NCBI RefSeq assembly: GCF_024362525.1
Contig: NZ_CP101458.1
Coordinates: 992,001-1,056,000, forward strand
Source: Natrononativus amylolyticus
Lineage (GTDB): Archaea > Halobacteriota > Halobacteria > Halobacteriales > Natrialbaceae
DNA: 64,000 nucleotides
Direction of reading: 5' to 3'
Below the pieces are notes generated by a model. The model saw only the letters and a program-made list of their open reading frames with translations, was not told where the DNA came from and ran no database searches. The position numbers and the translations under genes are program-made. Numbering within the stretch: position 1 is the stretch's first letter; each line of letters starts with the position of its first letter. Shown one piece after another: positions 21,706-33,989 of this stretch.

Positions 21706-23007
21706 ATGACAGCGAACCCCGGAGATCGCGTCCGGCTCGAGGGCGCAGACGGGTCCTACGAGGGCGTGTTGCTCCCCTCGACCACCGACGACCACCTCGT
21801 GGTGAAACTCGAGGGCGGGTACAACGTCGGCGTCGACCGCGAGGAAGTCTCCCTCGAGGTGCTCGAGGAGAACGTCTACCGGATCGAGAGCGGCCAGAGC
21901 GACGAGAGCGGCTCTGCGGTCGAGTTCGACGACGACCTCCCCACGATCGCGCTCATCTCGACCGGCGGGACGATCGCGTCGACGGTCGACTACCGAACCG
22001 GCGCGGTGACGGCGCAGTTCGACGCGGAAGACGTCCTCCGCGCGGTGCCCGATCTCGCCGGCCGGGCGAACTACCGCGGGCGGGTCGTCGCAAACATCCT
22101 TTCTGAGAACATGGAACCGCCGATCTGGCGGGAGCTCGCCGACGCGGTCGCGGCGGAGATCGACGCCGGCGCCGACGGCGTCGTCGTCATGCACGGCACC
22201 GACACGATGCAGTACTCGGCGGCGGCGCTCTCCTTCATGCTCGAGACGCCGGTTCCGATCGTCTTCACCGGCAGCCAGCGCTCGGCCGACCGGCCCTCCT
22301 CGGACAACGTCATGAACGCGGTTTGCGCCGTCGAGGCCGCCAAGAGCGACTGCGCGGAGGTGCTCGTCTGTATGCACGCCACGGAGTCCGACGACGTCTG
22401 CGCGCTCCACCGGGGCACTCGAGTCCGCAAGAACCACACCTCTCGGCGGGACGCCTTCGAGACCGTCGGCGCCGAGCCGCTGGGCGAGGTCGACTACGAG
22501 GCATGCGAGGCCCAGAGGGCCTCGAAAAGTCGAGCGGCGGCGAGCCGCGAGACCGAGGCGGTGTCCTTCCGCCGAGAATACCGCGAACGCGACTCTGTCG
22601 AACTCTCCGTCGAACCCGACCTCGAGGCGGACGTCGAACTCCTGAAGTTCACGCCCGGGATGGACCCCGCGTTCCTCGACGCCGCCGAAGGGAAGGCGGG
22701 GCTGGTGCTCGAGGGAACCGGCCTCGGCCACGTCCACACCGACCTGATTCCGCAGGTTGCGGAGCTGATCGACGGCGGGACGACGGTCGTGATGACCAGC
22801 CAGTGTCTCGAGGGGCGGGTCTGTGACCGGGTGTACGACACGGGTCGCGACCTGCTCGAGGCGGGCGTCCTCGAGGGCGAGGACACCCTGCCCGGAACCG
22901 CGAAGGTCAAGCTGATGTGGGCGCTCGCGAACGCCGACGACGTCGAGGAGGCGATGGCGACGTCGCTGGCCGGCGAGATCCAGGAGCGCTCGCGGCCCTG
23001 GGAGTGA
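21706..23007 (+). CDS. gatD: Glu-tRNA(Gln) amidotransferase subunit D
   Basis: 433 residues. GatD is the asparaginase-like ammonia donor of the archaeal GatDE complex that turns Glu-tRNA(Gln) into Gln-tRNA(Gln). The N-terminal barrel (to ~75) is followed by the asparaginase nucleophile motif STGGTIAS (85-92), MHGTDTMQYSA (~165) with the second Thr/Asp pair, GSQRSADRPSSDN, and the late STTV/TSQCLEG region. GatE is not in this window. Odd point: residues ~267-283 are an Ala/Arg/Ser-rich insertion coded by a double-hairpin DNA element (22506-22553). The GNAT gene starts one base after its stop. Confidence 0.95.
   Translation: MTANPGDRVRLEGADGSYEGVLLPSTTDDHLVVKLEGGYNVGVDREEVSLEVLEENVYRIESGQSDESGSAVEFDDDLPTIALISTGGTIASTVDYRTGAVTAQFDAEDVLRAVPDLAGRANYRGRVVANILSENMEPPIWRELADAVAAEIDAGADGVVVMHGTDTMQYSAAALSFMLETPVPIVFTGSQRSADRPSSDNVMNAVCAVEAAKSDCAEVLVCMHATESDDVCALHRGTRVRKNHTSRRDAFETVGAEPLGEVDYEACEAQRASKSRAAASRETEAVSFRREYRERDSVELSVEPDLEADVELLKFTPGMDPAFLDAAEGKAGLVLEGTGLGHVHTDLIPQVAELIDGGTTVVMTSQCLEGRVCDRVYDTGRDLLEAGVLEGEDTLPGTAKVKLMWALANADDVEEAMATSLAGEIQERSRPWE
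22506..22553 (+). repeat. In-frame double-hairpin palindromic element within gatD
   Basis: 48 bases: a perfect 8-bp stem CGAGGCCC (22506-22513) / GGGCCTCG (22517-22524) with a 3-base loop, an AAAA spacer, then a second stem GTC/GAC with tandem GA/GA mismatches and GCGGC (22534-22538) / GCCGC (22544-22548). Length is a multiple of three and it codes for an AQRASKSRAAASR-type insert. The nucleoside phosphorylase gene carries the same layout at 33641-33687. Confidence 0.6.
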
Positions 23008-33212: not shown

Positions 33213-33989
33213 ATGGCAACCCAGCCCCACCTGCTGGTCGACGACGGTGACGTCCACGACATCGCACTCATCCCCGGCGACCCCGGCCGAGTCGATCGGA
33301 TCGCCGGCCACTGCGACGACGCCGAAACGATCGCTCAGAACCGCGAGTACAAGGTCGTTAACGCCACCTACGGCGATCGGGAGCTGACGGTCTGTTCGAC
33401 TGGGATCGGCTGTCCCTCCGCGGCCATCGCCGTCGAGGAGCTCTCGAACGTCGGCGTCGAGACGTTCGTCCGCGTCGGCACCACCGGTGCGCTCCAGGCG
33501 GACGTCGAGATCGGCGACATGGTCGTCGCGACCGGTGCCGCGAAGAACGAGGGGACCTCGAAGCGCTACGAGGCCGTCGAGTACCCCGCCGTCCCCGACT
33601 ACGAGGTGCTCTCGGCGCTCGTGGACGCTGCGGAGAGACACGCGGCCCAACGGGCCGCGGAAAGCGCGAACGGCGAAGCCGTGAGCGGCGACGAGGAGGT
33701 CCACGTCGGTCCCATCGCGAGCGACGACGCCTACTACGCCGAGAGCGACGACGCCGTCGCCGACTGGGAGGCCGCGGGCTTGCTCTCGGTGGAGATGGAG
33801 GCCGCAGCGGTGTTCTCACTGACCCGCCGCAAGGGCCTTCGCGCCGGCGCGATCTGTACCGTCGACGGCAACCTCGTGAAGGGGACCCAGAAGGGGACTG
33901 ACACCGAGGACGACGAACTCCCCGAGAAGGCGAAGAACAACGTCGGCCGGGCGATCGACATCACGCTCGAGGCCGCGACCCGGCTCTAG
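33213..33989 (+). CDS. Nucleoside phosphorylase (uridine/guanosine phosphorylase family)
   Basis: 258 residues of the NP-I family: PGDPGRVDRIAGHCD, STGIGCPSAAIAVEEL, RVGTTGALQADVEIGDMVV, SVEMEAAAVFSL (catalytic Glu-Met-Glu region) and AICTVDGNLVKG. It cleaves a nucleoside with phosphate to free base and ribose 1-phosphate, feeding the kinase upstream. By cluster logic it is the guanosine phosphorylase of the haloarchaeal pentose bisphosphate pathway, though sequence alone fits uridine phosphorylase too. Residues ~143-159 are an inserted AQRAAESANGEAVSG stretch coded by a double-hairpin element (33641-33687). Confidence 0.88.
   Translation: MATQPHLLVDDGDVHDIALIPGDPGRVDRIAGHCDDAETIAQNREYKVVNATYGDRELTVCSTGIGCPSAAIAVEELSNVGVETFVRVGTTGALQADVEIGDMVVATGAAKNEGTSKRYEAVEYPAVPDYEVLSALVDAAERHAAQRAAESANGEAVSGDEEVHVGPIASDDAYYAESDDAVADWEAAGLLSVEMEAAAVFSLTRRKGLRAGAICTVDGNLVKGTQKGTDTEDDELPEKAKNNVGRAIDITLEAATRL
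33641..33687 (+). repeat. In-frame double-hairpin palindromic element within the nucleoside phosphorylase gene
   Basis: 47 bases with the layout of the gatD element: perfect 8-bp stem CGCGGCCC (33641-33648) / GGGCCGCG (33652-33659) with a 3-base loop, a GAAAG spacer, then CGC/GCG arms with tandem GA/GA mismatches around ACGGC (33670-33674) / GCCGT (33678-33682) and a GAA loop. It is read in the same phase as the gatD copy, giving AQRA...S in both proteins. Confidence 0.6.

Follow-up and report, generated by a model that had tools for sequence, protein, structure and literature searches.

A two-hairpin element inserted in frame in gatD of Natrononativus amylolyticus and its relatives in haloarchaeal genes and spacers

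Two-hairpin elements in gatD and a nucleoside phosphorylase gene

The window, by which we mean the whole stretch of 64,000 nucleotides of Natrononativus amylolyticus DNA that was analyzed, contains gatD and a nucleoside phosphorylase gene. Each of these genes carries a short element made of two hairpins. The features are listed below in window coordinates.

21706..23007, + strand: gatD, Glu-tRNA(Gln) amidotransferase subunit D, 433 aa (NF003217, E 2.3e-179; NCBIfam PRK04183 / gatD_arch; PDB 2d6f, 1zq1)
22498..22548, + strand: gatD insertion, 51 nt in frame (22501-22551 is an equal placement), peptide EACEAQRASKSRAAASR (~105 haloarchaeal GatD aligned; gap in 2d6f and 1zq1)
22503..22554, + strand: gatD element as delimited by covariance models (R1 22503-22553, R2 22503-22554)
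22506..22524, + strand: gatD hairpin 1, 8 bp, CGAGGCCC-AGA-GGGCCTCG, 3-base loop (arms 22506-22513 and 22517-22524)
22525..22530, + strand: gatD A-rich spacer, AAAAGT (read from the sequence)
22531..22551, + strand: gatD hairpin 2, C-GA-GCGGC-GGCGA-GCCGC-GA-G, tandem G.A pairs under a 5-bp stem (sequence, layout search and R2 match)
33213..33989, + strand: nucleoside phosphorylase (PNP_UDP_1) gene hosting the second copy
33638..33688, + strand: second copy; 16-aa insertion at about residues 142-157, HAAQRAAESANGEAVS (most Natrialbaceae homologues lack it)
33641..33659, + strand: second-copy hairpin 1, CGCGGCCC AAC GGGCCGCG
33667..33685, + strand: second-copy hairpin 2, C-GA-ACGGC-GAA-GCCGT-GA-G

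In hairpin 2 of the gatD copy, the arms (22534-22538 and 22544-22548) are flanked by GA at 22532-22533 and 22549-22550, and the closing pair is C22531-G22551. RNA folding of the region 22490-22570 gave a z-score of -2.6. The two copies share a codon phase across hairpin 1 and into the beginning of the spacer; at hairpin 2 their registers differ because the gatD spacer is 1 nt shorter than that of the phosphorylase copy. The first-pass annotation had placed both copies in the same phase, which held for hairpin 1 only. Its description of the gatD insert as 48 nt coding for residues ~267-283 was also slightly off. A different GA-hairpin, ACGCC-GA-GC-GAA-GC-GA-GGCGT, was seen at window position 1712; it belongs to a wider GCGAAGC palindrome type that occurs in several haloarchaeal loci.

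The copies within genes are insertions

In an alignment of ~105 haloarchaeal GatD proteins, the 17 additional residues directly follow the conserved GEVDY. Most of the homologues have no residues at this site and a few have short, unrelated additions, so that loop length ranges from +0 to +17 among haloarchaea. Both solved archaeal GatD structures, 2d6f and 1zq1, have a gap at the insert position. The insertion is bordered by GAG at both edges; hence there are two equivalent placements, and its 17 codons are residues 265-281 or 266-282 depending on the GAG chosen. The GAG on both sides can be explained by the element's own end. None of 80 gatD loci from named genomes carried the element, and the gatD site of genome G021 is empty. 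It had been stated beforehand that an insertion would be refuted if homologues from distant genera had these residues but no hairpins, and this was not the case. The AlphaFold model of GatD, made with 22 homologues, was poor (mean pLDDT 49), and exposure of the insert was therefore judged solely from the alignment gap to 2d6f and 1zq1. The GatD of Halovivax asiaticus (L047, 3001-4296) has an independent and unrelated addition of 17 residues at exactly the same site, without such hairpins.

Apart from GatD and the nucleoside phosphorylase, copies in the source genome were found in the genes for PheT, Hel308, TrpB, aspartate aminotransferase (AspAT), an eIF2B-like isomerase, MTAP, ribosomal protein S4e (at its C-terminal end), MoeA, NrdJ, IleS and a Dna2-like helicase. 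Empty orthologous sites were identified for eight of these hosts: PheT, TrpB, AspAT, MTAP, MoeA, NrdJ, IleS and the Dna2-like helicase. The aligned empty sites differ from the filled ones by whole codons, and in PheT and TrpB the insertions are clean, with exactly 51 nt between conserved residues. No target duplication was evident at the PheT or TrpB empty sites. The gatD copy and the other intragenic copies compared in this way are thus insertions relative to empty orthologous sites.

Many insertion sites are lineage-specific. The PheT, S4e and Dna2-like inserts are common to the source genome and G021, where gatD is empty, which indicates that not all insertions are equally old. Genomes G019 and G068 also have the phosphorylase insert, and G011 has a related one. 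Sites in the thioredoxin, AspAT and phosphorylase genes are common to distant genera, and at such shared sites old inheritance with losses, or gene transfer, could not be separated from repeated insertion. One locus in G035 (L257) and two on Halorussus plasmids (L411, L414) apparently hold the same thioredoxin-family gene; although the loci belong to different haloarchaeal families, the copy occupies the same site in each. Recurrent insertion, an old insertion or gene transfer are each possible there.

The element is a structured family found by covariance models

A strict two-hairpin layout with GA flanks occurred at three sites in 464 kb of the source genome, including both window copies, compared with 0-2 sites per 464 kb in Markov controls of order 1 and order 4. 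Covariance model R1 includes both window copies. Because it does, a second model, R2, was built from 14 copies in other genes only. R2 matched the phosphorylase copy with an E value of 1.2e-11 and the gatD copy with 6.1e-10; the next best match in the window was 0.036. The two-hairpin element in gatD and the phosphorylase gene is therefore real and beyond chance, and the claim, made from sequence alone, that the phosphorylase gene holds a second copy was confirmed.

No second copy of the gatD element was found by DNA similarity alone, and the simple pattern CGAAAAGTCGAG matched only unrelated sites apart from gatD. Plain sequence and pattern searches fail because the copies are too diverged, and structure is required. 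When one coding core was searched for with a near-exact pattern, 3 of 125 genomes matched, so identical coding copies of recent origin are rare; the coding core had no match in phages. No gathering-threshold match to Rfam was obtained at three loci with copies. An intein was rejected as the identity of the insert, which is far too short, and a CRISPR repeat was also considered and rejected.

R1 found 19 copies in the source genome at E<=0.01 and copies in all 121 Natrialbaceae genomes searched. In a phylum-wide sample it matched 21 of 148 genomes, all 21 of them haloarchaea of the source's own order. At E<=0.001, R1 had no match outside this order in the 148-genome sample, which is not known to include Methanocaldococcus. 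The element is about 48-53 nt long and consists of an 8-bp hairpin, a spacer of 6-8 nt and a hairpin with tandem G.A pairs. The consensus of the coding copies is nnGCGAGGCGCnACGCGCCTCGGAnnnnGCGAGCGGCGAnGAGCCGCGAGCnG, and intergenic copies tend to CGCGGCGC-GCGCCGCG and GCGAACGGCGAAGCCGTGAGC. Intergenic and intragenic copies coexist in the same genomes, with the intragenic share being roughly half in the two catalogued genomes, and many of the host genes have housekeeping roles. One 47-nt core is identical in two genera although it lies in a different gene in each, which speaks for dispersal. The proposed covariance-model scan thus revealed a family larger than the first-pass annotation had suggested.

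Intergenic copies vary in register, and only 36 of 81 are open in the coding frame. This could mean that coding and non-coding copies are distinct subfamilies. Some of the intergenic copies of G021 are near-identical repeats, with 5-6 copies per subtype. At several G021 loci (L381-L384, L388, L390-L399, L404) near-identical intergenic two-hairpin units lie inside larger multi-hairpin repeats, and in one group a unit lies within the hairpin-2 loop of another, a nested insertion. Intergenic copies at apparently orthologous places were seen at L197 (1501-1550; C1:131576 in the source genome), L194-L199, L203 and L354-L356. Several such copies have a conserved tail, such as GGAACGGAAGGAGGAGTGCTTTTGGTCCAGC, and may be a structured RNA or 3' region absent from Rfam. 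At L235 (1501-1559; C1:2654166 in the source genome), a copy lies directly downstream of the apparent 3' end of a tRNA gene.

Intragenic copies keep one strand and one frame

Gene calls were made with a codon-usage gene finder trained on the source genome. Forty-seven of 128 classified copies lay wholly inside genes; all 47 were in the sense orientation and 45 were in one codon phase. Stop codons do not explain this bias, since four to six of the six frames are open in each of these copies (log10 P about -32 for a uniform choice among open frames). The G021 catalogue, which holds 59 copies down to E 1e-3, has 25 intragenic copies, all sense and 24 in the same phase. Over all data there are 71 distinct intragenic copies, with 71 sense and 68 in one frame, and three to six of the six frames open. 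The three off-phase copies are at L242, L300 and L394. RefSeq annotation, which is independent of our gene finder, agrees: each of the five Halorussus plasmid copies examined falls within an annotated CDS, again in the sense orientation and in the family's phase (translations of three were made). The restriction of intragenic copies in strand and frame is thus established, and the idea of a palindromic family inserted with the reading frame kept was supported by these data, by the homologues that lack the residues and by the genome-wide and haloarchaea-wide distribution.

The typical encoded peptide is 16-17 polar residues, SEAxRASExASGDEPRA. Its mean net charge is -0.6 in the used frame and +2.5 to +4.4 in the others, so that only the used frame falls below zero, and peptides of the sense frames are more hydrophilic than those of the antisense frames. 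In 37 of 68 contexts, a Glu or Asp codon immediately precedes the insert. The peptide of the gatD copy is basic (+3), contrary to the family average. Given how the frames differ in charge and hydrophilicity, the bias requires no more than purifying selection, which would weed out basic or hydrophobic inserts from the acidic proteome of a salt-in cell. Selection as its cause is inferred, and an insertion bias is not excluded.

Another possible explanation is that the peptide is never made, the insert being spliced out like a bulge-helix-bulge intron or skipped by the ribosome as a translational bypassing element. The byp hairpins of Magnusiomyces mitochondria are translational bypassing elements. 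The size of ~50 nt, the strong hairpins and the essential, conserved host genes would fit such a scheme. Against it, a removed or skipped insert requires no open frame, no length divisible by three and no fixed frame, and 68 of 71 copies share one frame. The peptide is also polar with a constrained composition, and empty sites differ by whole codons. The frame argument is indirect; still, we consider this explanation very unlikely.

The stems covary

In 14 coding copies, 99.5 percent of the paired cells were complementary, with both-sided changes at seven pairs. There were 15 both-sided compensated cells in this set compared with 2.2 in shuffles, and slid controls were near zero. Three exact compensatory double changes were found between orthologous copies: G-C to C-G in S4e, C-G to T-A in the phosphorylase and A-T to G-C in a gene of G131 and G021. 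Matches to R1 are biased toward structure by construction, so the evidence for covariation is taken from the orthologue pairs and from the 14 coding copies, although these few copies had also been picked from among R1 matches. The stems covary across copies. Between orthologous copies, third codon positions were only mildly enriched in substitutions (16 of 29), which counts against the coding reading.

These results bear on one alternative, an ordinary in-frame indel or a hypervariable surface loop. On this view, residues 265-281 are low-complexity Ala/Arg/Ser sequence that was gained at a turn able to accept it, and GC-rich codons produced the hairpins as a side effect. In its favor, the length of the GatD loop does vary from +0 to +17, the upper value being matched by the unrelated Halovivax asiaticus addition. 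However, R2, which lacks the window copies, matches both of them (E 6e-10 and 1e-11), the same structure occurs in a dozen unrelated genes of the source genome and in intergenic DNA, and the stems covary. An ordinary indel is all but ruled out.

A structured element repeatedly recruited for a function in mRNA stability, processing or protein binding, and kept for its RNA structure or its peptide, is harder to dismiss. It would account for the compensatory changes between orthologous coding copies, for intergenic copies at apparently orthologous places and for insertions common to several genera, such as those in PheT, S4e and the Dna2-like gene (source genome and G021). However, the host genes are unrelated, most relatives lack the insert and numerous sites are confined to single lineages. 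Template-switch correction offers another way to maintain pairing, and it is possible that such intrastrand correction keeps the arms complementary without any function. We regard functional recruitment as unlikely.

Comparison with known palindromic repeats

Rickettsia palindromic elements (RPEs) are about 105-150 bp long and form one long stem-loop (Ogata 2000, 2002; PMC10969869, PMC2229807). Like RPEs, the haloarchaeal element forms a family of short palindromic repeats that occupy both intergenic DNA and, in frame, conserved genes unrelated to one another, whose proteins tolerate them. It meets the RPE traits of multiple inter- and intragenic copies and of in-frame copies absent from homologues. 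It departs from RPEs in length and in their single stem: it is 48-53 nt long, has two hairpins that include tandem G.A pairs and encodes 16-17 residues, and, unlike in RPEs, its strand and frame preference is almost absolute. The resemblance to RPEs, which had been noted at the outset, therefore holds for behavior; the element is not an RPE.

Coding palindromes have also been described in one methanogen, Methanocaldococcus jannaschii (cited in PMC2229807, PMC2996958), and these are likewise archaeal palindromes lying in frame in protein genes. The protein-coding palindromic repeats of Wolbachia, a bacterial endosymbiont, similarly lie within housekeeping genes (Ogata 2005, cited in PMC2996958). 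REP sequences, which are associated with RAYT/IS200-type transposases, are mainly extragenic and have GTAG or CGTC tags at the hairpin foot (PMC3733652, PMC6006769). They share with our element short, imperfect hairpins in many copies, and such hairpins are recognized as single-stranded DNA. They differ from it in that a large share of the haloarchaeal copies is intragenic and in frame; no GTAG or CGTC tag is present in the coding-copy consensus. A MITE would be marked by terminal inverted repeats and a target-site duplication tied to an autonomous transposon; the PheT and TrpB empty sites gave no clear duplication, and no parent transposon came to light. Among the PATEs and small mobile repeats of Haloquadratum, PATEs have near-terminal palindromes of IS605-type transposons, and 52-bp forms consisting of the termini alone are known (PMC3119063). 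PATEs are also haloarchaeal and palindromic, and they have neither a transposase nor a target duplication, features that were not evident for our element either, but they are not described in that paper as in-frame coding inserts. We found no description of haloarchaeal coding palindromes in the open-access literature searched. Most subscription papers were outside the scope of this search, and a prior description is possible.

Origin and maintenance of the element

The gatD insert very likely belongs to a palindromic insertion element that is dispersed through haloarchaea and enters protein-coding sequence, behaving like an RPE without being one; that it is translated is inferred. In this model, the element would spread as nucleic acid and also land in protein genes, where it would be translated as a polar peptide of 16-17 residues. 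Insertion itself would take no account of frame or strand. Purifying selection would then spare only the insertions that lie in exposed loops and use the hydrophilic, not strongly basic frame, whose peptide would suit the acidic proteins of salt-in cells. Pairing of the stems may be maintained for spread, at the RNA level or through intrastrand template-switch correction. Movement may depend on a trans-acting enzyme that recognizes the hairpins in single-stranded DNA, in the manner of IS200/IS605-type or REP-associated HUH transposases. Such HUH-type mobilization is our best guess, one that we hold with rather less than even confidence; it has not been shown, and neither a transposase nor a target duplication nor a strain-level gain was demonstrated. 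Tolerance of the insert in surface loops and mobilization as single-stranded DNA both remain inferences.

A bolder reading, which we hold to be rather unlikely, is that a pan-haloarchaeal element is tuned both for paired nucleic-acid structure, which its spread would require, and, in a single strand and frame only, for an acidic or polar peptide compatible with salt. The sense bias would then come from the insertion process and not from selection alone, and its absolute character might arise via transcribed or single-stranded non-template DNA. If true, this would be an element able to colonize essential genes and spacers alike.

Protein-coding palindromes were previously known mainly from intracellular bacteria and one methanogen. 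The family described here supplies many in-frame insertions made by nature, for which empty sites serve as controls, in aminoacyl-tRNA synthetases, a ribosomal protein, ribonucleotide reductase and DNA helicases, and the origin of new protein segments from selfish DNA becomes testable in genetically tractable haloarchaea. It also accounts for unusual inserts in housekeeping proteins of haloarchaea, which one would otherwise take for functional loops.
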